The notes under the pieces: generated by a model | Told to the model about the DNA's origin: nothing | The model's input: only the letters and a program-made list of their open reading frames with translations | Databases searched by the model: none | Source of the DNA: a virus | Strand: one strand, 5' to 3' | IMG/VR virus record: IMGVR_UViG_3300036978_000268 | Location: 1 to 39,386 of that record | DNA: 39,386 nt | Translations under genes and position numbers: made by a program | In this document: positions 6,929 to 39,063 of the stretch, one piece after another | Numbering within the stretch: position 1 is the first letter of the stretch | Layout of the letters: every line of letters starts with the position of its first letter

Positions 6929-7585
6929 ATGGCATTGAAAACGCTTGCGATCAAACTGGAAACAGTCTCGCCGGACCCCGCAAACGTCCGACGACACCCC
7001 GAAGACAACATCAAGTCCATCATGGCTAGTCTTAGAGCTTTTGGGCAGCAAACCCCAATCGTTGTTGATGCCCGAAACATCATACTTAAAGGCAACGGCA
7101 CCTATGAAGCAGCCAGACGTCTAGGATGGGACAAGATTGATGCCGTACGAACCACGTTAGACGGATCATCTGCCGTTGCTTACGCGATTGCGGACAACCG
7201 CACAGCCGAAAAAGCGGAATGGGATAACTTAGCTCTCGGCAAAACCCTGAGAGAACTTGAAAGCTCGCTTGATTCAATCGAAATCACAGGTTTTACCTCA
7301 AAAGAGATCGACAGATTGCTTGATGACGCAGCAAGCCAGATGCTTCAGGACTCCGTGTTGTCGCGGGACGAAGACGACGACGAAACCCACGACGAAGAAG
7401 AACGCAACGAAACAGACGAAGAAGTGCCTGACGCATTTGGCGTCAGGACGCTTGTACTTGCCTACACCGGATCTGAGTTTGAAGAAGCGCTGTCGATCAT
7501 AAACGCGCTGAAATCCAAAGACGTCTCTGTCACGAGCGGTATTGCGGTACTACGAGCTTTAAGGAGCTATGCACAACATGTCTGA
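6929..7585 (+). CDS. ParB/Srx-domain protein
   Basis: 218 residues behind GAGGATACCAC. Residues 8-100 form a ParB/sulfiredoxin-fold domain: DPANVRRHPEDNIKSIMASLRAFGQQTPIVVDARNIILKGNGTYEAARRLGWDKI, with the usual GNG-x-x-x-A-A-x-x-L-G nucleotide-binding stretch. A helical linker and an extremely acidic stretch (DEDDDETHDEEERNETDEE) follow, then a small C-terminal domain. Such domains in phages act as CTP- or ATP-dependent DNA-binding modules or regulators. It is first in a cassette with a cupin, a PAPS-reductase-like enzyme and a second ParB-like protein. Chromosome-partition function is unlikely; no parA or parS-like repeats are seen. Confidence 0.8.
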   Translation: MALKTLAIKLETVSPDPANVRRHPEDNIKSIMASLRAFGQQTPIVVDARNIILKGNGTYEAARRLGWDKIDAVRTTLDGSSAVAYAIADNRTAEKAEWDNLALGKTLRELESSLDSIEITGFTSKEIDRLLDDAASQMLQDSVLSRDEDDDETHDEEERNETDEEVPDAFGVRTLVLAYTGSEFEEALSIINALKSKDVSVTSGIAVLRALRSYAQHV

Positions 7586-8366: not shown

Positions 8367-9515
8367 GTGGCTGACTTGTTCAAAACGCTTTCGTGTGACG
8401 TCTGGACGGCGGCAAAATATCGGGTTCGTGTTGCTTACGAAACTTACGACAATGTTGTCGTTTCGCTGTCAGGCGGCAAAGATTCGACAGCAGCACTTCA
8501 AGCGACAATAGCCACAGCGAAGGAACTTAGACGGTTGCCCGTAGAAGTCCATTTTTACGACGAGGAAGCGATCCCGCCCGAAACAGTCGAGTATGTCGAA
8601 AGGGTCAGAAAGCTGCCCGAGGTATGTTTGAAATGGTTCTGCTTACCTTTAAAGGCTCGAAACGCTTGTTCTGCGACATCGCCTGACTGGTATCCATTCC
8701 ACCCTGACGAAAAAAACATTTGGGTGCGACCCCTACCCGCAAACGTCATTACAAAACATCCCGACTTTCGAATGGGGATGGAGATTGTCAACTTTTCGTC
8801 GTTTATGCTTGCAAAACGGGCCGAATCGACTGCGTTAGTCATGGGTATTAGAATGCAAGAGTCGATCACACGATTGCGGGCTATCCAGCACAAATCAGAC
8901 TCTGAACGCGCTTTCTTTTCGCCATCAGACAAACATAAAAACGTAGTCAAATGTTATCCGGTATACGATTGGCTTGCGGAAGATATCTGGACTGCTCCGC
9001 AACGGTTTGGATGGGATTATAATAGAGCCTATGACGTTATGCAGAAATCAGGTTTGTCAATCGGATCGCAACGATGCTCGCCGGCATTTGGCGAACAGCC
9101 AATACGAGGATTGCACAGGTATGCGACATGCTGGCCAGATTTATGGGAACGAATGATCCACCGAGTGCCAGGAGCCGCGACAGCAGCCCGATACGCCAAT
9201 ACGGAACTTTACACAGGCCTTGGTGCAAAAGAATCGGACGTTTCGTGGAAAGCTAAATTCGAAATCGGTTTTGCTCGATTGACGACTGACTCAAAAGACG
9301 AAATCCGGACGGCTATACGAAAAGTGATTCAATATCACAATCGGTTTACGCCTGACGTAGTGCCTGACCACGAACCACATCCAGAAACCTCTCTCTGCTG
9401 GCGAAAGCTGTACAAAATCGTTTTGGCTGGCGGAAACAAGTTTGGACGCCAAGAGCAGAAGCTGACCAAAGATATCGTGAATCACAGAATCAAACTGGAA
9501 GGAAGCGGCAAATGA
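8367..9515 (+). CDS. PAPS reductase / IbrA-like PP-loop ATP pyrophosphatase
   Basis: 382 residues, GTG start behind AAGGTG. Residues 29-40 (NVVVSLSGGKDS) are the PP-loop that binds ATP or PAPS and releases pyrophosphate; AIPPETVEYVERV and KWFCLPLKARNACSATSPDWYPF follow. The C-terminal half (GSQRCSPAFGEQPIRGLHRYATCWPDLWERMIHRVPGA) matches the IbrA-like group of PAPS-reductase homologues. These may transfer sulfur or adenylate a substrate; the reaction of phage members is not established. It overlaps the next, ParB-like gene by ATGA, the IbrA-IbrB pairing known from E. coli prophage activators. Family assignment is strong, reaction unknown. Confidence 0.85.
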   Translation: MADLFKTLSCDVWTAAKYRVRVAYETYDNVVVSLSGGKDSTAALQATIATAKELRRLPVEVHFYDEEAIPPETVEYVERVRKLPEVCLKWFCLPLKARNACSATSPDWYPFHPDEKNIWVRPLPANVITKHPDFRMGMEIVNFSSFMLAKRAESTALVMGIRMQESITRLRAIQHKSDSERAFFSPSDKHKNVVKCYPVYDWLAEDIWTAPQRFGWDYNRAYDVMQKSGLSIGSQRCSPAFGEQPIRGLHRYATCWPDLWERMIHRVPGAATAARYANTELYTGLGAKESDVSWKAKFEIGFARLTTDSKDEIRTAIRKVIQYHNRFTPDVVPDHEPHPETSLCWRKLYKIVLAGGNKFGRQEQKLTKDIVNHRIKLEGSGK

Positions 9516-10090
9516 AGGTAGGAACTGACAATCAACCAATCGGCAAAGTCGTTTGGATCGACAGATCAAAACTCAAAGCGAACGATTACAACCCGAATCG
9601 TCAATTCGGACCGGAACACGAACTCTTGAAACGCTCGATCATCGAAGACGGATGGACCCAACCGATTGTTGTCCACGCAGGAACGAGAGTGATTATTGAC
9701 GGCGAACATCGTTGGAAAGCGTCAGATGATCCGAGGATCAGAGAGATGACTGGATCGCTCGTCCCGGTCGTGTTTGCCGAAGCTTCACGATCACACGCAC
9801 AATTCTCAACTATTCGCCACAACCGCGCACGAGGCCAACACGGGGTACGCCCGATGGGCGATATCGTCGTCGAGTTGATTAAAGCCGGAAAGTCGGTGAA
9901 GGACATCAAAATCCAACTTGGCATGGAGACCGAGGAAATTGCGCGGCTTGCAGAAAGCCGAGGATTACCAGTTTTGATTGGAACAGACAGGGAACTGGCA
10001 AAAGCACGAATACCAAAGAAGTGGACACCTTACAGCAAACGAAAATCCGTCATAACCGCGAAGGTAAAAAAGACCAAGGCAGAGCCATGA
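9512..10090 (+). CDS. IbrB-like ParB/Srx-domain protein
   Basis: 192 residues. WIDRSKLKANDYNPNRQFGPEHELLKRSIIEDGWTQPIVVHAGTRVIIDGEHRWKAS is a complete ParB/sulfiredoxin domain with the D-G-E-H-R motif in place of G-x-x-R. A helix-turn-helix-like segment (MGDIVVELIKAGKSVKDIKIQLGMETEEIARLAESRG) follows, then a basic tail. It starts in ATGA overlap with the PAPS-reductase-like gene, as IbrB follows IbrA. It probably binds DNA and directs or partners the enzyme. Unlike the ParB-like gene at 6929 it has no acidic region, so the two likely differ in role. Confidence 0.8.
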   Translation: MKVGTDNQPIGKVVWIDRSKLKANDYNPNRQFGPEHELLKRSIIEDGWTQPIVVHAGTRVIIDGEHRWKASDDPRIREMTGSLVPVVFAEASRSHAQFSTIRHNRARGQHGVRPMGDIVVELIKAGKSVKDIKIQLGMETEEIARLAESRGLPVLIGTDRELAKARIPKKWTPYSKRKSVITAKVKKTKAEP

Positions 10091-18962: not shown

Positions 18963-19489
18963 GACACAGCTTTTTGCTGATGCTTTTAACCGCGACATCG
19001 GCGGGGGCTCAGGCTCCTGCCGATCTCTCGTCTGTCATCATACCGCCAACAACAGAACGGACGATTGTCTTTACGGATCGGGGCCGAACCTATGCAGTCG
19101 GTACCCAGTCCGGCAAGATCAGCATCCTCAACGGTGGCGGGCCGGGGCCTGTCATCCCTCGACCGAACCCCGGAACTCTATCAGGGCTTTCAAAGCAAGT
19201 CCTTGACGCCGTCACGCAAGCCGTACCAGATGCGACGACGAGGGCTCAAGGGGCAAAAGCTCTGATTGGAGCCATCGAAAGCACGATAGGCGAAGCGGGG
19301 GGCCTTGGGACAACTGACCCGCAGGCAATCATAAACAGTTTAGCGGCAAACGCCGAAGCGGCAAAGGTCAACGAACTCCTGAAAGGCTTCCGGCTCGGGG
19401 ATATTCTCACCGGGGCCAATGTAACAACAGCCGACCAGTTAATCAAGGTATTGAACGATATCAAGGCCGGGATGGAGGCGGTTAAATGA
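18959..19489 (+). CDS. secreted protein with signal peptide
   Basis: 176 residues. Residues 1-18 (MRHSFLLMLLTATSAGAQA) are a classic Sec signal peptide with an Ala-x-Ala cleavage site. The mature part has a Pro/Gly linker (GGGPGPVIPRPNPG) and two helical segments. ATGA overlaps join it to neighbours on both sides, just before the cysteine protease. It may be exported to the periplasm as a spanin-like or envelope factor. No family recognised. Confidence 0.6.
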   Translation: MRHSFLLMLLTATSAGAQAPADLSSVIIPPTTERTIVFTDRGRTYAVGTQSGKISILNGGGPGPVIPRPNPGTLSGLSKQVLDAVTQAVPDATTRAQGAKALIGAIESTIGEAGGLGTTDPQAIINSLAANAEAAKVNELLKGFRLGDILTGANVTTADQLIKVLNDIKAGMEAVK

Positions 19490-20397
19490 ACATAGAACTG
19501 GACGCAACGCTCCTAAACTTTGGAACGGGATGGATTGACGATCCAGACGCAGTAAAGGCAATCATCTCCGAAAACAATGTTCGCCAAGTCTCGGAACTGA
19601 TTGGGCCGACAGATACGTCAGATCGGCGTCAGATTACCGATCTGACGATTTACCTCGAAAAAGTATACGGTGAACGGTGGTATCTCAACCAAGGCTCCTG
19701 CGGCTCATGTGTCGCCTTTGGAGCGGCATTGGCGTGCGATACGCTTGTGGCTATCGAAATTGTAGAGCGGTCAATGAATAAACCGACTGGCCGAACTGAT
19801 CCGATGTCGATCTATTGGGGCTCGCGTGTGGAGATCGGCGGCAATCGGCTATGGGGCCAAGGTTCGGTAGGTGCATGGGCGGCAAAATGGCTCAAAGACT
19901 ACGGAGTATTGACACAGGCTGAATATCCCGGATGCGATTTATCGACCTATAGTGCGGCGGTATGCTGCGGGCCAAACGCCAACCGGGGAGTGCCGAATGA
20001 ACTCGAATCAATAGCACGGCAACACCCGGTAAAAGACTATGCACAGTGCAAAACCTTCGAAGATCTTACAAGGGCAATCGAATCAGGATATCCAGTGACC
20101 GTTGCGTCAAACCAAGGCTTCACCCGGAAAAGGGATGCGAAAGGCTTTGCTAAACCATCAGGAAACTGGGGACACCAAATGGTAATCGTAGGCGTCAGGC
20201 ACGATATACCGGGGGCATTGATCGCCAACTCATGGGGAGCCTATTTTACAGGCGGGCCGGATAAGCTTTCACCAGCCTGTTTTTGGACAGACGATACAAC
20301 TGTAAGCAGGATGCTTCGTCAGGGCGACTCCTTCGCTATGTCAAACATACAGGGCTGGCCGGGCAAAAGGCTTTCAGCAATCGCGTTAAACTGGTGA
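19486..20397 (+). CDS. papain-like (C1) cysteine protease
   Basis: 303 residues. QGSCGSC (residues 69-75) has the oxyanion Gln69 and catalytic Cys75; GHQMVIVGV supplies catalytic His230; ANSWG supplies Asn248, in correct papain order. Additional Cys pairs (CC at 160-161, CDL) may form disulfides. No signal peptide is visible on this protein; the preceding gene has one. Placed at the end of a run of small membrane proteins, where an endolysin normally sits. It may cleave envelope or cell-wall protein during lysis, or serve in virion maturation. Confidence 0.85.
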   Translation: MNIELDATLLNFGTGWIDDPDAVKAIISENNVRQVSELIGPTDTSDRRQITDLTIYLEKVYGERWYLNQGSCGSCVAFGAALACDTLVAIEIVERSMNKPTGRTDPMSIYWGSRVEIGGNRLWGQGSVGAWAAKWLKDYGVLTQAEYPGCDLSTYSAAVCCGPNANRGVPNELESIARQHPVKDYAQCKTFEDLTRAIESGYPVTVASNQGFTRKRDAKGFAKPSGNWGHQMVIVGVRHDIPGALIANSWGAYFTGGPDKLSPACFWTDDTTVSRMLRQGDSFAMSNIQGWPGKRLSAIALNW

Positions 20398-33229: not shown

Positions 33230-33418
33230 ATGAAGATTATGAACCACGCTGAATATCGAAAACAAATGACAACGCTCTCGAACGAAGTACTTCGCTTCAT
33301 CATGGCGGATGCCTATAACGCCGCACAAGCCATGCCTGAAAGCCCGAATGCTGGATACTATCTGGACGAACTGAATTACGCTTCTATGGAATTGGCAAGA
33401 CGCCATCGTTGCAATTGA
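33230..33418 (+). CDS. small protein in cassette 1, before a ribozyme
   Basis: 62 residues. MKIMNHAEYRKQMTTLSNEVLRFIMADAYNAAQAMPES and YYLDELNYASMELARR are helical and charged. The leader is conserved with the cassettes at 35330 and 38267, though the proteins share no obvious sequence. A hammerhead ribozyme starts 3 bases after the stop. Function unknown. Confidence 0.65.
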   Translation: MKIMNHAEYRKQMTTLSNEVLRFIMADAYNAAQAMPESPNAGYYLDELNYASMELARRHRCN

Positions 33419-33420
33419 CT

Positions 33421-33472
33421 AAGCCGAAACGCCGAAAGGCGTCTGCCGATCTAAGCGGCACTGACGAGGCTT
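33421..33472 (+). ncRNA. hammerhead ribozyme 1 (type II)
   Basis: Order: AAGCC (33421, stem II) - GAAA - CGCC-GAAA-GGCG (stem III with GAAA loop) - UC with cleavage after C33443 - UGCCG/CGGCA (stem I) - CUGACGA - GGCUU (stem II). Core residues CUGANGA and GAAA and the cleavage triplet GUC are all present. Stem II is the open one, so it is type II. It lies between two small genes and would cut their shared mRNA. Confidence 0.9.
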
Positions 33473-33491
33473 TAACATAGGAGACAGACAA

Positions 33492-33773
33492 ATGGCTCAG
33501 TACAAAACACCCATGGACCGCGACCAAGTTTTCGAGTCGGCCATGCGATCTTTCAAGGCTTTTCTGAACGATCAGATTGGACTGAACGATCAGGCTTTAA
33601 CCCCCTACAACGAGCTAGACGACGAGATGCTCGGCATGTATAACGATCTTACGGAGAACGATGGACTAGGCCACAGGGAAGCCATGAAGCAGGTTAAAGA
33701 GTCGTTCTACGAATCACTCGAAGAGATTTTGAGCGATGGCCTTGACGACATCTTTAATGGCATCGGACAATAA
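33492..33773 (+). CDS. small acidic protein after ribozyme 1
   Basis: 93 residues behind TAGGAGACAGACAA. Helical and acidic (DDEMLGMYNDLTEND, KESFYESLEEILSDGLDDIF). Cleavage by the ribozyme would leave it on a downstream mRNA piece with a 5' hydroxyl. No family recognised. Confidence 0.65.
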   Translation: MAQYKTPMDRDQVFESAMRSFKAFLNDQIGLNDQALTPYNELDDEMLGMYNDLTENDGLGHREAMKQVKESFYESLEEILSDGLDDIFNGIGQ

Positions 33774-33785
33774 CTATCGCACCGG

Positions 33786-33810
33786 CCCCTCTACAGAGGG
33801 GCAAGTTTTT
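33786..33810 (+). terminator. terminator of cassette 1
   Basis: CCCCTC (33786-33791) pairs with GAGGGG (33796-33801) around TACA, then CAAGTTTTT. Good intrinsic terminator. Confidence 0.7.
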
Positions 33811-33842
33811 AAGTTTGATCCACCACCTAACAGGAGTCAGTA

Positions 33843-34112
33843 ATGAAGTATCCAATAGTGTCGGACGTCTTGACGATGGATGAAGTTTTTGAGGCTGTCG
33901 CCAAGGCCCACCCCGAAGCGGTCTATCGGGTCGAGACGCTGGAAGATCAGGAGGACGGGACGAAGGCTTGGCAAAACATAGAGTGCGCCAAGGTGATAAT
34001 CATGACTGGCGGAAAGGCTTTGTATGTCGATGACGCAAACGGCTACGACCTTTTAGACGACCTTGAGACTCTCGATCACCCAACCGTCCGGCTAGTTTGG
34101 GATAACAGCTAA
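33843..34112 (+). CDS. small protein of unknown function
   Basis: 89 residues behind AACAGGAG. MKYPIVSDVLTMDEVFEAVAKAHPEAVYRVETLED then a beta segment (AKVIIMTGGKALYVDDANG). Acidic. No family recognised; no promoter is visible in the 32-base gap after the terminator, so it may rely on read-through. Confidence 0.65.
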   Translation: MKYPIVSDVLTMDEVFEAVAKAHPEAVYRVETLEDQEDGTKAWQNIECAKVIIMTGGKALYVDDANGYDLLDDLETLDHPTVRLVWDNS

Positions 34113-34153
34113 CCTCTTTTTCGAGTTCGAATAATACATTAACAGGAGTTCGA

Positions 34154-34324
34154 ATGACACCGCTTGACGATCCGGCCAAACCACTGACAGAGTGTTTCCA
34201 ATGCGAGCGGAAATCCGACTTTATCTGCGCTGATTGCGCCGTTTGTCTGCTGTGTTGCAATTGTGACGACACCGCCGAATACGACGACGAAGAAGAGGAA
34301 GACGACGATGACGACACCGCTTGA
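34154..34324 (+). CDS. short Cys-rich protein with acidic tail
   Basis: 56 residues. CFQCERKSDFICADCAVCLLCCNC is a dense set of Cys pairs suited to two zinc sites, followed by an acidic tail (DDTAEYDDEEEEDDDDDTA). The same module, with DDPAKPLT upstream of it, is inside the protein at 34555, so one was copied from the other. Ribosome site ACAGGAG. Confidence 0.65.
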   Translation: MTPLDDPAKPLTECFQCERKSDFICADCAVCLLCCNCDDTAEYDDEEEEDDDDDTA

Positions 34325-34568
34325 ACAAGTAGAAACACAGATTATCGAGCTTGAGGCTAAAATTGCCGAACTTGAGGCTGAACTAGAGAACAGGCCGGTC
34401 GTATGGGCGATCCAGCACATCGAGACCAAAACGCTGTCGAACAGAGGGTACTCGGTGGACCTCTACGCATCAGTGGAGGCCGCCGAAAGTGCTATTCGAA
34501 CAGAATTTGAACCGTCCGAGTATCAGACGATCGTTTACACGGAGAGGCATCTTGATGACACCGCTTGA
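34308..34568 (+). CDS. small coiled-coil protein between the two Cys-rich genes
   Basis: 86 residues from ATG 34308 (an earlier in-frame start at 34263 is inside the preceding gene). N-terminus is a short coiled coil (LEQVETQIIELEAKIAELEAELEN), then a beta domain (VVWAIQHIETKTLSNRGYSVDLY, AAESAIRTEFEPSEYQTIVYTERH). It overlaps its neighbours at both ends through the same ACACCGCTTGA block. Confidence 0.6.
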   Translation: MTTPLEQVETQIIELEAKIAELEAELENRPVVWAIQHIETKTLSNRGYSVDLYASVEAAESAIRTEFEPSEYQTIVYTERHLDDTA

Positions 34569-35139
34569 ATTTATCGCATCACTAGAGCACGGCGAGGCCA
34601 AGGCTGCGGCGTTGACCATTTACAACCTGATGTCGCCAAAGTGGATTGAGAACACCGACGATCCGGCCAAACCACTGACTGCAGAGTGCTTGCAGTGCGA
34701 AAATCAAACAAAACATCTTTGCCTTTATTGCGATGTTTGTTTGCTGTGTTGCGATTGCGATGACGACGAAGAAGAAGAGGAAGACGAGGACGAAGAAGAG
34801 CAACGACCAACCGAAAGAAACGAGATAATGAAGATTACGAGCCGCAACGATAAGCCAAGGATTGATCCTGAGGTTCTAGCAGAAAACAAAGCGTGGCGGT
34901 CTAATGTGTTCGATACCCCCTTTAATCGGCAAGACGCAGCGAAGCAGCTTCTCGACCTAAGAAGTCGTGGCACCGAGGGAAGATATTACGCTTCACACAT
35001 TCGTCGCATGGCCCAATTAGGACCAGGCATGTGGCACGCATCGCCTGGCGTACGCGCTTCAAGGATGGCCTTCGCAATCACCGAACAGATTACGCCAACA
35101 CTACTCGCCAGATTGCCGCAACCCGTTACTGCACCCTGA
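34555..35139 (+). CDS. Cys-rich protein with acidic linker and C-terminal helical domain
   Basis: 194 residues from ATG 34555 with GGAGAGG upstream. Residues 36-70 repeat the Cys module of the gene at 34154 (DDPAKPLTAECLQCE, CLYCDVCLLCCDC). An acidic run (DDDEEEEEDEDEEE) links to a C-terminal domain (NRQDAAKQLLDLRSRGTEGRYYASHIRRMAQLGP). A zinc-binding adaptor is likely. No family recognised. Confidence 0.6.
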   Translation: MTPLEFIASLEHGEAKAAALTIYNLMSPKWIENTDDPAKPLTAECLQCENQTKHLCLYCDVCLLCCDCDDDEEEEEDEDEEEQRPTERNEIMKITSRNDKPRIDPEVLAENKAWRSNVFDTPFNRQDAAKQLLDLRSRGTEGRYYASHIRRMAQLGPGMWHASPGVRASRMAFAITEQITPTLLARLPQPVTAP

Positions 35140-35154
35140 ACACCTTAATCTCCA

Positions 35155-35194
35155 AAGCCTGTTCGCCATTTCCTGTGGCAACAGGCTTGTTTTA
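35155..35194 (+). terminator. strong two-part terminator
   Basis: AAGCCTGTT (35155-35163) pairs with AACAGGCTT (35180-35188); an inner GCCA/TGGC stem extends it with a one-base bulge. GTTTTAT follows. Ends the Cys-rich group before cassette 2. Confidence 0.75.
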
Positions 35195-35245
35195 TAGTGT
35201 TTGATGTACGCTCGAAAAACTTTTCAAAAAACTTTGGAATACACC

Positions 35246-35274
35246 TTGACTACTAGACCTCTAGGGTATATAGT
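35246..35274 (+). promoter_or_regulatory. promoter of cassette 2 with operator CTAGACCTCTAG
   Basis: TTGACT (35246-35251), 17-base spacer, TATAGT (35269-35274). The operator palindrome lies at 35253-35264. Upstream A/T tracts (TTTTCAAAAAACTT) match those before 38187 and may be an UP element. Leader 35275-35329 is the conserved one. Confidence 0.8.
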
Positions 35275-35329
35275 CTTGGTGTAGGGAAGAGAAGCGAAAC
35301 GAAACCGACAAACGAAAGAGACAAGACCG

Positions 35330-35551
35330 ATGACAAGCTTGACACTTTACTTTAGTGACCGCCCTTACGTCTCGAGCCACCTCAAAGCACCAAAGGGATT
35401 TGGCGTATGGGCATTCAGCGAAGACCAACGGGGCAACGACATGATCTTCACGCCATACGCCATGACGCTGACAAACGCCAAGAAATGGCTCAAAACCAAA
35501 CTGAAGACCGAAGGCGTCACGGGAATTTACACGGTTTATATCCTATCCTGA
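35330..35551 (+). CDS. small protein in cassette 2
   Basis: 73 residues behind AAAGAGACAAGACCG. SLTLYFSDRPYVSSHLKAPKGFGVWAFSEDQRGND... and AKKWLKTKLKTEGVTGIYTVYIL read as a small alpha/beta protein. Widespread-phage-like in style but not recognised. Followed by a hairpin terminator. Confidence 0.65.
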   Translation: MTSLTLYFSDRPYVSSHLKAPKGFGVWAFSEDQRGNDMIFTPYAMTLTNAKKWLKTKLKTEGVTGIYTVYILS

Positions 35552-35557
35552 CCGACC

Positions 35558-35573
35558 GGGGCCTTCGGGCCCC
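35558..35573 (+). terminator. TTCG-loop hairpin
   Basis: GGGGCC-TTCG-GGCCCC. The same hairpin recurs at 37236 and 39041, each shortly after a small gene. Only a mild T tract follows (TGCTTTGG), so some transcription may pass to the gene at 35594. Confidence 0.55.
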
Positions 35574-35593
35574 ACTGCTTTGGAGAGAGACGA

Positions 35594-35893
35594 ATGCTAA
35601 TTGCGAAGACAATCCTCGAACAACTTGGCGGATCAAAATTCATTGCGATGACTGGAGCTAAATCCTTTATCACTGATGGCAACGGCTTGCAGTTCAAACT
35701 GCCTTCACGGTTCGCACGGGGCGGCACCAACTTTGTCCGGATTACGCTTGAACCTTCGGATTTATACAAGATGGAATTCTTCCTTTACCGGAAGAATCGG
35801 GACTTGGAGATGGTAGATGTCATGACTGGCGTTTATTGCGACCAGCTTCAAACGATATTCACCGGAGCAACCGGGCTTGACGTTAGCCTTTGA
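35594..35893 (+). CDS. widespread phage protein of unknown function
   Basis: 99 residues behind GGAGAGAGACGA. LEQLGGSKFIAMTGAKSFITDGNGLQFKLPSRFARGG...VRITLEPSDLYKMEFF is a pattern I recognise from many phages and prophages; the role is unknown. Hammerhead 2 starts 2 bases after the stop, so the stop codon sits at the ribozyme edge. Confidence 0.7.
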   Translation: MLIAKTILEQLGGSKFIAMTGAKSFITDGNGLQFKLPSRFARGGTNFVRITLEPSDLYKMEFFLYRKNRDLEMVDVMTGVYCDQLQTIFTGATGLDVSL

Positions 35894-35894
35894 C

Positions 35895-35946
35895 AAGCCG
35901 AAACGCCGAAAGGCGTCTGGCGGTTATACCGCCACTGATGAGGCTT
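35895..35946 (+). ncRNA. hammerhead ribozyme 2 (type II)
   Basis: AAGCC - GAAA - CGCC-GAAA-GGCG - UC, cleavage after C35917 - UGGCGGU/ACCGCCA (7-pair stem I) - CUGAUGA - GGCUU. All core bases match the hammerhead consensus and stem I is covariant with ribozymes 1 and 3. Separates the genes at 35594 and 35971. Confidence 0.92.
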
Positions 35947-35970
35947 TAAACACGTCTGGAGAGACAACAG

Positions 35971-36447
35971 ATGGATTACGAGAAGATTGCCGAAGATCAC
36001 CGGGCATACGCGAAAGAATGCGACCAGCGGGCCGCAGAGAGCTTTGAACGGTGCGACACAGACGGATTTCTGACCCAATGGGCAACCGGGCTGACGGCTG
36101 AACTTAATCGCACACGGGCTGATATTGCGGACAAGAAAGGGTGCTGGACGTTTTGCGGATTGTACAAGGGCGGCACCCGGATTAAAGCCAAGATCGTCAA
36201 GACAGCATACGGGCGGACATGGCTTATTCACGACGATCATTTTGACCTGGTCAACAACAGGCGGTTTATCCCTCTTGCAATGGGAGGCACCAGCCGCATT
36301 CAGGTTGGACTCGGGCTGACCGAGCGTTTTGAACTGGCACCCGCCTTCGCGATGATTACAGGCGAAGGGTACGGGCTATCCGGGACCGCATGGGTCGAGG
36401 TCATTCGATCAGGCGACAAATGGGGCCTTGATTCAATTCCAGCGTAA
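35971..36447 (+). CDS. phage protein family of unknown function, after ribozyme 2
   Basis: 158 residues behind GGAGAGACAACAG. AAESFERCDTDGFLTQWATGLTAELNRTRADIADKKGCWTFCGLYKGGTRIKAK and GLSGTAWVEVIRSGDKWGLDS match a family often next to the family of the 35594 gene in phage genomes. The conserved pairing, here split by a ribozyme, suggests a shared job. Role not known. Confidence 0.7.
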   Translation: MDYEKIAEDHRAYAKECDQRAAESFERCDTDGFLTQWATGLTAELNRTRADIADKKGCWTFCGLYKGGTRIKAKIVKTAYGRTWLIHDDHFDLVNNRRFIPLAMGGTSRIQVGLGLTERFELAPAFAMITGEGYGLSGTAWVEVIRSGDKWGLDSIPA

Positions 36448-36475
36448 AGCCTCACACCATGCCAAGGAGGGCACT

Positions 36476-36805
36476 ATGTGGAGCATACGGATATCGGCGT
36501 TTGGACTATCAGTAACTTTCAAGCGGGGCCTACGAGCCTCAAAGGATAAGGCTAAAAATGGGAGTGGCGAAACGAGTAGGATACAACCCCGACAAAGTGC
36601 GGATCGGGCTCCAGATGATACTCGACGGGAGTCTGGATCAAAAGCAAATCGTCAATGCCGTCCGGGCGGCAATTCACTTTGTCGATGCCGAAGGCCGGGC
36701 GGTAGAACTGGCAACGGGCGACTCCAATCAAGCCCGGAAGGCCTTGGCGTTAAACCGGGGGGACGCCTTATGGCATTCCCGGAAGCCCGAATACTGGTAC
36801 GATGA
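36476..36805 (+). CDS. possible overlapping small gene with strong ribosome site
   Basis: ATG 36476 follows AAGGAGGGCACT, the best Shine-Dalgarno of the region. Product begins MWSIRISAFGLSVTFKRGLRASKDKAKNG, then reads through the frame of the gene at 36558 and turns Arg/Pro-rich, unlike a real domain. Either the strong site serves a short peptide or the frame is a chance opening. Confidence 0.3.
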   Translation: MWSIRISAFGLSVTFKRGLRASKDKAKNGSGETSRIQPRQSADRAPDDTRRESGSKANRQCRPGGNSLCRCRRPGGRTGNGRLQSSPEGLGVKPGGRLMAFPEARILVR

Positions 36806-36887
36806 AGTCCGGGCTGAACGGCGGGCGCTAAATGACGGCGACGAGGCACTTTACACCCCGCAAAAAAATGTTTTTGCGAAGCCTTGA
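36558..36887 (+). CDS. protein of unknown function
   Basis: 109 residues behind AAAGGATAAGGC. VGYNPDKVRIGLQMILDGSLDQKQIVNAVRAAIHFVDAEGRAVEL and ALNRGDALWHSRKPEYWYDEVRAERRALNDG are helical and well formed. The stop overlaps the -35 box of the next promoter. No family recognised. Confidence 0.6.
   Translation: MGVAKRVGYNPDKVRIGLQMILDGSLDQKQIVNAVRAAIHFVDAEGRAVELATGDSNQARKALALNRGDALWHSRKPEYWYDEVRAERRALNDGDEALYTPQKNVFAKP
36859..36878 (+). other. hairpin inside the end of the 36558 gene
   Basis: CGCAAAAA (36859-36866) pairs with TTTTTGCG (36871-36878) around AATG. Followed by AAGCC, so not a terminator by the usual rule. Confidence 0.35.
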
Positions 36888-36912
36888 AATTAGACGCCTA
36901 GAAGGCTAGAAT
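36884..36912 (+). promoter_or_regulatory. promoter with operator TTAGACGCCTAG in its spacer
   Basis: TTGAAA (36884-36889), 17-base spacer with TTAGACGCCTAG (36890-36901), TAGAAT (36907-36912). The operator is identical to that at 6872. TSS would fall near 36919, at the start of a hairpin. Confidence 0.7.
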
Positions 36913-36919
36913 ACTAAAG

Positions 36920-36937
36920 GCGGGAGAGACACCCCGC
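36920..36937 (+). other. GGA-loop hairpin at the 5' end of the transcript
   Basis: GCGGG (36920-36924) pairs with CCCGC (36933-36937) around AGAGACAC. Like the hairpin at 866 it presents GGGA-GA at the loop, a candidate CsrA site, at the predicted start of the mRNA. Confidence 0.4.
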
Positions 36938-36959
36938 AACATCTTCACGGGAGCCAAAA

Positions 36960-37229
36960 ATGCAGTACTCAGAATTAGATCTTGTCCGAATGACGCCCCG
37001 CAATCGCGGGGATGTCCTGACCCAACTTCAACGCCAAATCGACTCTTATATTGAACTCGATTGGTTGACAGACGATGAGGCCGAACATTGTTTATATATC
37101 GAACGGCTCGTCCAATTGCTCTGGGCATTGCCCACGCAAATATCTGAGACGTCACCTGTCGGGTATTACGATGGGCGGACGTACCAGTATATCGTTGTCG
37201 CGGAATCACGGGATAAGGCTTTCGCCTGA
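36960..37229 (+). CDS. small protein of unknown function
   Basis: 89 residues behind CGGGAGCC. MTPRNRGDVLTQLQRQIDSYIELDWLTDDEAEHCLYIERLVQLLWAL is helical with a C-terminal strand (YDGRTYQYIVVAES). No family recognised. TTCG-loop hairpin follows. Confidence 0.65.
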   Translation: MQYSELDLVRMTPRNRGDVLTQLQRQIDSYIELDWLTDDEAEHCLYIERLVQLLWALPTQISETSPVGYYDGRTYQYIVVAESRDKAFA

Positions 37230-37235
37230 CCGACT

Positions 37236-37255
37236 GGGGCCTTCGGGCCCCGGAA
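37236..37255 (+). terminator. TTCG-loop terminator
   Basis: GGGGCC-TTCG-GGCCCC (37236-37251) then GGAATTTAG. Same hairpin as 35558 and 39041. Immediately followed by the AGACC-repeat element. Confidence 0.6.
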
Positions 37256-37280
37256 TTTAGACCTCAAGACCACAAGGGAT
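37256..37280 (+). repeat. AGACC-repeat element before ATG
   Basis: Begins TTTAGACC and holds the tandem units AGACCTCA-AGACCACA followed by AGGGAT, 5 bases before ATG 37286. A copy with the same bases lies at 39061-39085. The AGGGA also serves as ribosome site. A variant operator or conserved leader. Confidence 0.6.
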
Positions 37281-37285
37281 TAAGC

Positions 37286-37531
37286 ATGAAACATTTCGCC
37301 TACAGAACTAAGGGTGCAGGGCCAACTGACACTATGGGAGCCCGAATTAAAGTCCGCCAAATGGGGCTCAAACGGCTCACTACGGTTCCTTACGACTATG
37401 CCATAAACGTATGTCAAAACCATGTCCAAGCGGCAATCAAGGCGCACCGCAGAGTGGAAGAGGAAGACCTTGAAATCCTCGAAACAAGGGATATGCAAAT
37501 GGGCTATCTGATAATAGGAGTGGTGCGATGA
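37286..37531 (+). CDS. small protein of unknown function
   Basis: 81 residues. YRTKGAGPTDTMGARIKVRQMGLKRLTTVPYDYAINVCQNHVQAAIKAH and DLEILETRDMQMGYLIIGVV read as a small alpha/beta protein. ATGA overlap to the next gene. Confidence 0.6.
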   Translation: MKHFAYRTKGAGPTDTMGARIKVRQMGLKRLTTVPYDYAINVCQNHVQAAIKAHRRVEEEDLEILETRDMQMGYLIIGVVR

Positions 37532-37899
37532 AATTTCGGAGGATCACACCAGCAAGCGGACAGCAAGCTCTACCACTCCCACGCCGAAAGCGTGGGGGAC
37601 ATGCCAATATTCAGCGAATTGCAGAACAGACCGAGGAAATCGTCTGGCACGCTCATGCGATGATTAAGCACCATGGAAGGGTCAGTGTTGGTGGATTATG
37701 CCAAACTTGGCACATTACGCCGGGAGGAGCAAGTTATCAGCGACTTCGAGATCTACTCCTGTCAGCAGGCTTTACGCTTGCACAACTCGGAATCGAAGAG
37801 AGGGCTCCAGAAGCCACCCAGACCAAGCCAATTCCAACAGGACCAAAGCCTGAACCTGTCGGGGCTGACACCTGTTTTGTCTGCTACGCAGGAGGCTGA
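37528..37899 (+). CDS. protein of unknown function with C-terminal CxxC
   Basis: 123 residues, ATGA overlap with the previous gene. Basic N-terminus; helical middle (IQRIAEQTEEIVWHAHAMIKHHGRVSVGGLCQTWHI and SYQRLRDLLLSAGFTL) with winged-helix character; Pro-rich linker; C-terminal CFVC. The gene contains a 9-pair hairpin (37576-37598, CGAAA loop). Confidence 0.6.
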   Translation: MKFRRITPASGQQALPLPRRKRGGHANIQRIAEQTEEIVWHAHAMIKHHGRVSVGGLCQTWHITPGGASYQRLRDLLLSAGFTLAQLGIEERAPEATQTKPIPTGPKPEPVGADTCFVCYAGG

Positions 37900-37924
37900 C
37901 GAATTGATTGACGGAGCAAGCTCG

Positions 37925-38197
37925 ATGCACGAAACCGCTTACCAACTGATTGTGGAGATTGAGGGCGGGAAGTGCTTGCGCGAACTCGGAATCTATCTGT
38001 CAGTCGAAGATGTCCGGCGGGCCATGAATGCCATCGTGGCGGATCGGCCAAAAGATGTTGTCGCGATCGGCGTCAGGACGGTACGGGTGCTTTATTGGGG
38101 CAAGCCTGATAAACCCTACAAGTTCAGGGTCGAACCGATCACGCCACCACGCCGAAAAATAATTTTCAAAAAACTTCGGAATTCCCTTGACGTCTAG
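37925..38197 (+). CDS. small protein of unknown function ending in the next promoter
   Basis: About 90 residues from ATG 37925; TTG 37904 behind AGGAGG is an in-frame alternative. The longer frame back to 37673 overlaps the previous gene and is unlikely. YQLIVEIEGGKCLRELGIYLSVEDVRRAMNAIVADRPKDVVAIGVRTVRVLYW is a clear helical/beta domain. The last codons (LRNSLDV) lie inside the promoter at 38187. Confidence 0.6.
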   Translation: MHETAYQLIVEIEGGKCLRELGIYLSVEDVRRAMNAIVADRPKDVVAIGVRTVRVLYWGKPDKPYKFRVEPITPPRRKIIFKKLRNSLDV

Positions 38198-38215
38198 ACG
38201 TCTAGGGAATATAGT
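38187..38215 (+). promoter_or_regulatory. promoter of cassette 3 with operator CTAGACGTCTAG
   Basis: TTGACG (38187-38192), 17-base spacer, TATAGT (38210-38215). The perfect operator at 38194-38205 overlaps a second palindrome GTCTAGAC. Upstream TTTTCAAAAAACTT equals that of cassette 2. Leader 38216-38266 is the conserved one. Confidence 0.8.
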
Positions 38216-38266
38216 CTTGGTGTAGGGAAGACGCAACGGAAACAACCGAACGAAAGAGACAAGACG

Positions 38267-38653
38267 ATGACCGTAGCAACCAAATCAGTCGTTTCAACCG
38301 AAATGGCGATGGAATTGATTCTAAAACTCACCCTCAAGCGTAACATGCGGGTGTCAGTTTGCAACGGCGAAGCCATGGTGCTAACAAAGTCAACGGATCT
38401 CGAAGCCATCAAAGCGGCTATGTATTCGACCGACAGCGAAACGCTTACCTTTTGGGATAACGAAGGCTTCGGTTCGGCTTCCGTCCAGCAAGGCTATTTG
38501 AACCTTGTTCACGACGAAGCTAACGTAGGGCTGGATTGCGTCTCGACGGCATACGGGAAGCCAATAGAGGACGCCTACGACCGGATACTGGAAGTCGTTA
38601 AGAGAATTGACGAATTATGCGATTTTCAGATTTGGCTATTCAGCCGGAACTAA
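38267..38653 (+). CDS. protein in cassette 3, before ribozyme 3
   Basis: 128 residues behind AAAGAGACAAGACG. SVVSTEMAMELILKLTLKRNMRVSVCNGEAMVLTKSTDLEAIKAAMYS and DETLTFWDNEG-like strands suggest an alpha/beta fold. The TAA stop overlaps the first bases of ribozyme 3. No family recognised. Confidence 0.65.
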   Translation: MTVATKSVVSTEMAMELILKLTLKRNMRVSVCNGEAMVLTKSTDLEAIKAAMYSTDSETLTFWDNEGFGSASVQQGYLNLVHDEANVGLDCVSTAYGKPIEDAYDRILEVVKRIDELCDFQIWLFSRN

Positions 38654-38703
38654 GCCGAAACGCCGAAAGGCGTCTGGCGGTTTTACCGCCACTGATGAGG
38701 CTT
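38652..38703 (+). ncRNA. hammerhead ribozyme 3 (type II)
   Basis: AAGCC - GAAA - CGCC-GAAA-GGCG - UC, cleavage after C38674 - UGGCGG-UUUU-ACCGCCA (stem I) - CUGAUGA - GGCUU. All conserved core bases present; stem I loop differs from ribozyme 2. Separates the genes at 38267 and 38731. Confidence 0.92.
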
Positions 38704-38730: not shown

Positions 38731-39030
38731 ATGAACTCAGTAACGACCAAGCCGATGAGCAACAAACAACGCTCCAAGGATGCACAAGAGACCGATGCGT
38801 TTGATCGGAAGATGAAAGACAGCAGATTCTGGAGCGACGAGTGGTATTACGCTCGGTGTCGTTTCAATTACGGCCAAGCGATGACGTGCTTGAATTTAGC
38901 TTGTGAAAGTAGGAACCCAACCTTTGCTCGGGTCTGGATTATGCGATTTACAAATGATCGGAAAAGCTACATTCAGGCGGTCAAAAACCTCAAGGAACAT
39001 CCAAAAAAGATCATGCCACTTCCAAACTGA
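38731..39030 (+). CDS. small basic protein after ribozyme 3
   Basis: 99 residues behind GAAAGAGAGAGACAA. TKPMSNKQRSKDAQETDAFDRKMKDSRFWSDEWYYARCRFNYGQAMTCLNL and RFTNDRKSYIQAVKNLKEHPKKIMPL. Aromatic-rich, helical. No family recognised. Confidence 0.6.
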   Translation: MNSVTTKPMSNKQRSKDAQETDAFDRKMKDSRFWSDEWYYARCRFNYGQAMTCLNLACESRNPTFARVWIMRFTNDRKSYIQAVKNLKEHPKKIMPLPN

Positions 39031-39038
39031 CTGACCGA

Positions 39039-39063
39039 CCGGGGCCTTCGGGCCCCGGAATTT
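39039..39063 (+). terminator. TTCG-loop terminator
   Basis: CCGGGGCC-TTCG-GGCCCCGG (39039-39058) followed by AATTT. Longest of the three such hairpins. Confidence 0.7.

Follow-up and report, generated by a model that had tools for sequence, protein, structure and literature searches.

Hammerhead ribozymes are already known from the spaces between phage genes, and the type II form, its occurrence in multiple copies in phages and the idea that it processes mRNA have been known since 2011. In that year Perreault et al. (PMC3088659) proposed that several hammerheads cut phage transcripts into mRNAs of single-gene or operon length, reported that multiple prophage hammerheads cleaved in vitro within transcripts of ~2 kb and that one such set did so in E. 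coli as well, and noted a halovirus transcript whose 5′ end maps no more than 3 nt from the cut site of a hammerhead. The role of hammerheads in phages has nonetheless been described as open (PMC6155905). Here we analyze three hammerhead ribozymes (HHR1 to HHR3) in the IMG/VR record IMGVR_UViG_3300036978_000268, whose 39,386 nt we call the window; they belong to a compact type II form, and we consider that they probably act in cis as constitutive gene separators.

As in the type II hammerheads of Perreault et al. (RF02276), stem II is open, the core follows CUGANGA/GAA/NUH, and multiple copies lie between phage genes, where a processing role was proposed. The order from 5′ to 3′ is stem II, GAA, stem III with its GAAA loop, C17, the stem I hairpin, CUGANGA and the other strand of stem II, so that stems I and III are closed. 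HHR1 (33421–33472, + strand) comprises stem II (33421–33425/33468–33472), GAA (33426–33428), stem III (33429–33433/33438–33442), C17 (33443), stem I (33444–33448/33456–33460) and the core CUGACGA (33461–33467), with a predicted cut at 33443/33444. HHR2 (35895–35946, +) has stem II at 35895–35899/35942–35946, C17 at 35917, the stem I hairpin at 35918–35934, the core CUGAUGA at 35935–35941 and a predicted cut at 35917/35918, and HHR3 (38652–38703, +) has C17 at 38674, the stem I hairpin at 38675–38691, the core CUGAUGA at 38692–38698 and a predicted cut at 38674/38675. All three carry CUGA(C/U)GA, GAAA and a GUC cleavage triplet, with five pairs in every stem II and stem III and 5, 7 and 7 pairs in stem I (five standard pairs plus an A·G in HHR1, six to seven pairs in HHR2 and HHR3).

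A generic pattern (core CUGANGA + GAA + NUH, at least four pairs in stems I and III, at least two in stem II) found exactly three hammerheads in the 39,386 nt and none elsewhere on either strand. These are the coordinates and the strand given in a preliminary description of this DNA, whose predicted 5′ ends (33444, 35918 and 38675) also coincide with those expected from cleavage after C17. The sequence GAAACGCCGAAAGGCGTCTG occurs three times with at most three mismatches, against 0.00 expected. A covariance model built from relatives scores the copies, which are themselves among its 58 sequences, at 72.0, 72.0 and 64.9 bits, and the next best place in the window at 13 bits. HHR1 and HHR3 additionally have sub-threshold Rfam scores, and HHR2 and HHR3 have orthologous copies in related contigs. 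A search for intrinsic terminators (GC-rich hairpin plus U run) at HHR1–HHR3 found no terminator-like site. We regard the three elements as confirmed type II hammerhead ribozymes, with self-cleavage predicted.

To place them among other viruses, we scanned a viral collection with the core and stem III fixed and stems I and II left free, which returned at least 120 stretches; the counts that follow concern 122 unique sites (138 matched places) among the matches listed. Stem I had at least four pairs in 129 of the 138 matched places. In an alignment of 58 compact members with 15 pairs, 99.5% of the pair cells were standard, 208 cells were two-sided (compensatory) against 57 after shuffling, and nine of the 15 pairs showed two-sided changes; sliding the partner columns by one reduced pairing to about a third. 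Stem III is invariant in this alignment because the search pattern fixed it, whereas pairing in stems I and II was not imposed. A decoy pattern with one core base mutated (G5C) gave four matches, representing two independent sequences without a proper stem I, against at least 120 for the true pattern. Because of this unimposed covariation and the nearly empty decoy, we conclude from the alignment that these sequences are maintained as hammerheads, with catalysis predicted. The compensatory change in stem I that had been noted between the window copies thus extends to orthologous sites and across all 58 sequences.

The 122 sites fall into two groups with little overlap, one with a ~17-nt stem-loop I and a 4-bp stem II, the other with a ~22-nt stem-loop I and a 2–3-bp stem II. 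The window copies are of the first, compact kind (54 of the 122 sites), which has a 6-bp stem I, a 5-nt UNANG loop and a 4-bp stem II preceded by A. The ~22-nt group has the pseudoknot known from the literature between loop I and the tail (mean longest match 4.22 versus 2.97 shuffled; at least 4 in 71%); for the compact subtype we rejected such a pseudoknot of at least 4 bp (2.39 versus 2.11; at least 4 in 11%). The anatomy of the compact subtype and its lack of a Watson–Crick loop I–tail pseudoknot distinguish it from the type II of Perreault et al., as do scores below the Rfam cut-off and a stop-codon-locked placement that the accessible text of that paper does not state. A pseudoknot does not define the ribozyme, because only about 40% of all hammerheads have one according to the same text, which adds that many without it may use other contacts.

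This difference bears on detection. At the gathering threshold, an Rfam scan of the window matched no family; against RF02276 (Hammerhead_II, gathering cut-off 37 bits) HHR3 reached 24.3 bits and HHR1 23.9 bits, and HHR2 was not listed at E ≤ 10. The preliminary description had offered the Rfam type II model as one of its checks, and formally the outcome of this one went against it, with no copy above threshold; we attribute the low scores to a model built mainly on pseudoknotted members. Among 31 records chosen for the compact subtype, the cut-off was exceeded in two (G007 and G024), and 14 had no RF02276 match at E ≤ 0.01. The compact subtype is largely missed by the Rfam model, and Rfam-based surveys undercount phage hammerheads.

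In the compact subtype an A immediately precedes the 4-bp stem II, and loop I opens with a U. The sole tertiary pair common to both natural hammerhead classes, known from satellite-virus hammerheads as a conserved A-U Hoogsteen pair, joins an A beside stem II to a U beside residue 1.6 (PMC2553840). It is at precisely these positions that the compact subtype shows conservation and covariation. From the sTRSV class (type III, satellite RNA) the subtype differs in that the open stem is II rather than III and the setting is phage mRNA rather than circular RNA replication. In the 58 sequences the two positions read A-U 54 times, U-A twice, and C-C and A-G once each. None of 500 shuffles reached the pairing percentage or the covariation score, the chance of both U-A exceptions coinciding is 6 × 10⁻⁴, and the A is kept in 27 of the 29 cases where it is not part of a stop codon. 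A contact between the A before stem II and the loop I U is thereby supported at the level of covariation. As a Hoogsteen pair, however, U-A would not be isosteric with A-U, and the A of the window copies may serve instead to lengthen stem II to 5 bp. Covariation is also seen between the base that ends loop I and the one that follows stem II (A-U seven times, U-A six times, the rest mostly G with A or G), a pattern to which shared ancestry could contribute.

Placement relative to genes is equally regular. With genes called by a purpose-made caller (about 85% of the DNA coding), a co-directional pair on the ribozyme's own strand surrounds 103 of the 122 sites (84%), which come from unrelated phages, compared with 6.5% of random placements. 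In 79 of 111 sites the upstream stop codon ends −1 to +2 nt from stem II; the start codon that follows lies mostly 14–41 nt past stem II. In the window, stop codons lie −2 to +2 nt from stem II and start codons 19–27 nt downstream. Each copy had been said to follow a stop codon by 0–2 bases, which is so for HHR1 (TGA, 2 nt) and HHR2 (TGA, 1 nt), but HHR3 overlaps its TAA (38651–38653); that another small gene follows each ribozyme is correct (B1, B2 and B3, with A and P denoting the upstream genes and promoters of the same sites). Some phages carry dense sets. G039, which has the pseudoknotted subtype, shows nine model matches in 3.1 kb, and in the part examined all seven core-matched copies have an open reading frame (ORF) stop within −1 to +6 nt and an ORF start 15–22 nt after. 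Counted as RF02276 matches, this locus (G039:42000–47500) and one in G040 have nine and eight within about 3–4 kb, the G039 set separating successive small genes.

Such a position would also suit a ribozyme that mainly ends or protects one message, through stem III at the 3′ end of A or the 5′-OH hairpin of B, with separation incidental. Both ends would carry a closed hairpin, the abutting stop codon leaves a nearly minimal 3′ untranslated region, and genes upstream of a ribozyme are somewhat short (median 249 nt versus 306 nt on average, p = 0.0006). We nevertheless regard this account as unlikely, since in the relative L124 a site that lacks the neighboring gene or block lacks the ribozyme too, and the gene that remains has none, as a separator would predict.

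L124 and L130 were obtained by protein similarity, independently of the ribozyme, and a search for further close relatives with four protein queries found just these two other contigs sharing the early region. Both genes of site 2 recur in L124, again with a hammerhead of intact core at the corresponding point between them; its stem I reads UGCCGA/GCGGCA against UGGCGG/CCGCCA in the window (the third pair changing from G-C to C-G), stem III is longer and loop III is changed. At site 3, L130 keeps the hammerhead (also present in L008), with loop III changed from GAAA to UGCG, both tetraloops, and the free position N7 changed. In L124, A3 and HHR3 are jointly missing and the promoter-leader stands directly before B3, and at site 1 A1 runs straight into P2, with HHR1, B1 and every gene that would follow as far as P2 absent. 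In this small sample, the ribozyme is present where two genes need separating and absent where they do not. The absence of the ribozyme from two of three sites in L124, each time together with a flanking gene or block, points to piecemeal gain and loss and not to the designed system first envisaged; nor is the set phage-wide as had been claimed, with only three copies, all at 33.4–38.7 kb, and none in the structural, replication or integrase regions. We also considered that the ribozyme might travel with B2 and rejected this, as distant B2 relatives in L125–L129 carry no type II hammerhead and G052–G054 have none by the model.

The same comparisons could be read at the DNA level, the 52-nt units serving as repeated joints for the exchange of gene modules and ribozyme activity being secondary. 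Promoter-leaders, ribozymes and UUCG hairpins are indeed all repeated, modules are present or absent at these joints, and the stem I of HHR2 in L124 is nearly identical to that of HHR1 in the window. Yet among phages selection preserves the RNA pairing and lets stems I and II vary freely in DNA sequence, the opposite of what a homology joint needs, and the decoy scan found essentially no catalytically dead copies; we therefore give this explanation very little weight.

Under the separator reading, RNA polymerase would read the promoter, gene A, the ribozyme and gene B into a single transcript. The ribozyme would fold past the stop codon of gene A and cut after C17, about 22–25 nt beyond that stop. 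Since a type II hammerhead has both stem I and stem III closed, one cut would leave a hairpin on each new end: the upstream message would end in the stem III hairpin with a 2′,3′-cyclic phosphate, and the downstream message would begin with a 5′-OH on the closed stem I hairpin, followed by a Shine–Dalgarno region and the start codon of gene B. The cut would thereby uncouple translation and decay of the two genes, and when a phage gained or dropped a small gene, the message of the neighbor in the same transcription unit would stay as it was. Architecture, covariation, placement and presence or absence can be read from the sequences themselves; cleavage, stabilizing hairpin ends and uncoupling we infer. 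That the element separates and insulates the two messages is suggested by the anatomy, by the cleavage that similar phage sets underwent in vitro and in E. coli and by ribozyme insulators. RiboJ-type hammerhead insulators are described as normalizing 5′ ends and raising mRNA stability (PMC7536230), and the window elements would resemble them in lying ahead of a gene, giving it a defined hairpin 5′ end and insulating it from upstream sequence; RiboJ is engineered, sTRSV-derived and placed after promoters, whereas these are natural and follow a stop codon. The hammerhead variant of haloviruses HF1/HF2 likewise lies just upstream of a start codon, that of an early gene, with the mapped 5′ end at the cut, but it is a core variant at a single site in an archaeal virus. 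Splitting of mRNA is the best-supported role; that the mRNA is a two-gene one, as first suggested, is clear only for cassette 1, and in cassette 2 two genes (A2 and A2′) precede HHR2.

Several points weigh against this reading. The minimum-energy fold of HHR3 is the hammerhead, but when HHR1 and HHR2 are folded with 20 nt of flank, only stems I and III persist, as coding sequence upstream pairs in place of stem II. The gene caller is our own, and the tight spacing could come partly from general phage compactness. The survey pattern fixes stem III and the core, and its sites are those among the matches listed. The presence/absence comparison, finally, is one relative with two events, which fit gain of the modules as well as loss.

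The folds in which the end of gene A competes with HHR1 and HHR2, and a stop codon that overlaps or abuts stem II so that a terminating ribosome would cover it, could instead indicate a regulated switch, with a ligand, a protein or translation of the upstream gene controlling cleavage. These folds prompted us to consider that the end of gene A might mask the core in a translation-gated way, which we rejected over 97 sites, where pairing between gene A ends and the core was no stronger than with shuffled or swapped sequences (mean z −0.15, SE 0.11). Loops of 3–8 nt also leave no room for a sensor domain, and we consider a switch improbable. Hammerheads of eukaryotes and viroids serve selfish or circular-RNA elements (PMC6155905), but a like origin is scarcely credible here: the copies are spaced 2.5–2.8 kb apart, each under a separate promoter and between unrelated small genes, with no conserved cargo, and Perreault et al. 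found no circular or spliced products.

The window is a temperate tailed phage with genes for a large terminase, portal, prohead protease, HK97-type capsid and tyrosine integrase. Its host is probably a planctomycete, because the integrase scores higher in Planctomycetota (top score 136 bits in 199 genomes) than in Pseudomonadota, the phylum of an Asticcacaulis metagenome-assembled genome (51 bits in 200 genomes); a search of genome contigs for a near-identical integrase found none. A host-borne element was rejected, as the model matches just two of 294 Planctomycetota genomes. A nucleotide similarity search of the window against 50,697 phage records gave no match. L008/L130 and L124 run continuously from the window end (39371) into its start (1), so the genome is circular or circularly permuted. 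Elsewhere in it, a papain-family cysteine protease gene (19486–20397) lies in the structural cluster just before the major capsid gene, and genes at 6929–7585, 8367–9515 and 9512–10090 comprise a PAPS-reductase-like gene, a ParB-like gene upstream (a sub-threshold Pfam ParB_N match) and, immediately downstream, one that may be similar; together they perhaps form a module for the modification of DNA or nucleotides.

The hammerheads lie within a region of small, mostly unassignable genes, in three cassettes that share a promoter with a 17-nt spacer and a common leader; all cassette features are on the + strand. Cassette 1 runs from promoter P1 (33150–33178; TTGACT, 17 nt, TATAGT, with the palindrome CCTAGACGTCTAGG in the spacer; promoter scan and repeat family D2) through A1 (33230–33418, ORF of 62 aa, 90% identical in L124), HHR1 and B1 (33492–33773, ORF of 93 aa) to a terminator-like hairpin (33785–33802), of a kind barely above shuffled expectation. 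Cassette 2 has P2 (35246–35274; TTGACT, 17 nt, TATAGT), A2 (35330–35551, ORF of 73 aa, 90% in L124), A2′ (35594–35893, 99 aa, phrog_9437, 79% in L124) and, after HHR2, B2 (35971–36447, 158 aa, phrog_5855, 89% in L124). Cassette 3 has P3 (38187–38215; TTGACG, 17 nt, TATAGT; like P2 from the promoter scan and repeat family), A3 (38267–38653, ORF of 128 aa, phrog_22565, absent from L124) and B3 (38731–39030, 99 aa). Together with one at 36884–36912, P1 to P3 make four sigma-70 type promoters, and in three of them the 17-nt spacer contains a palindrome around CTAGACGTCTAG that resembles an operator, which suggests one common repressor for those that carry it. A GGGGCC-UUCG-GGCCCC hairpin without a U run lies directly 3′ of stop codons at 35547–35573 (with the stop codon of A2; repeat D6), 37225–37251 and 39030–39056, and is also present in L124 and L130; it is a second type of intercistronic element that may do a job similar to the ribozyme's. 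The genes at 34154–34324 and 34555–35139, members of repeat D4, encode two small proteins that are rich in cysteine (CxxC ... CLLCC) and end in long acidic tails.

Set against the accessible literature, what is new is the measured stop-codon locking, a compact subtype that has a covarying contact and that Rfam hardly sees, and the natural presence/absence cases, although an earlier sighting of the subtype is possible. More tentatively, and with somewhat more doubt than confidence, we envision a distinct compact subclass as standard gene punctuation in many phages, one that would start at the stop codon, give the next gene a hairpin-capped message, and come and go with the small genes it insulates, a natural counterpart of engineered insulators. 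The two contact bases of the compact subtype would offer a simple way to ask how far a natural hammerhead can shrink without becoming slow. With a stop-codon-locked placement at more than 100 phage sites, loss together with a missing neighbor, and paired sites with and without the ribozyme, the idea that hammerheads process phage mRNA becomes a set of testable predictions.

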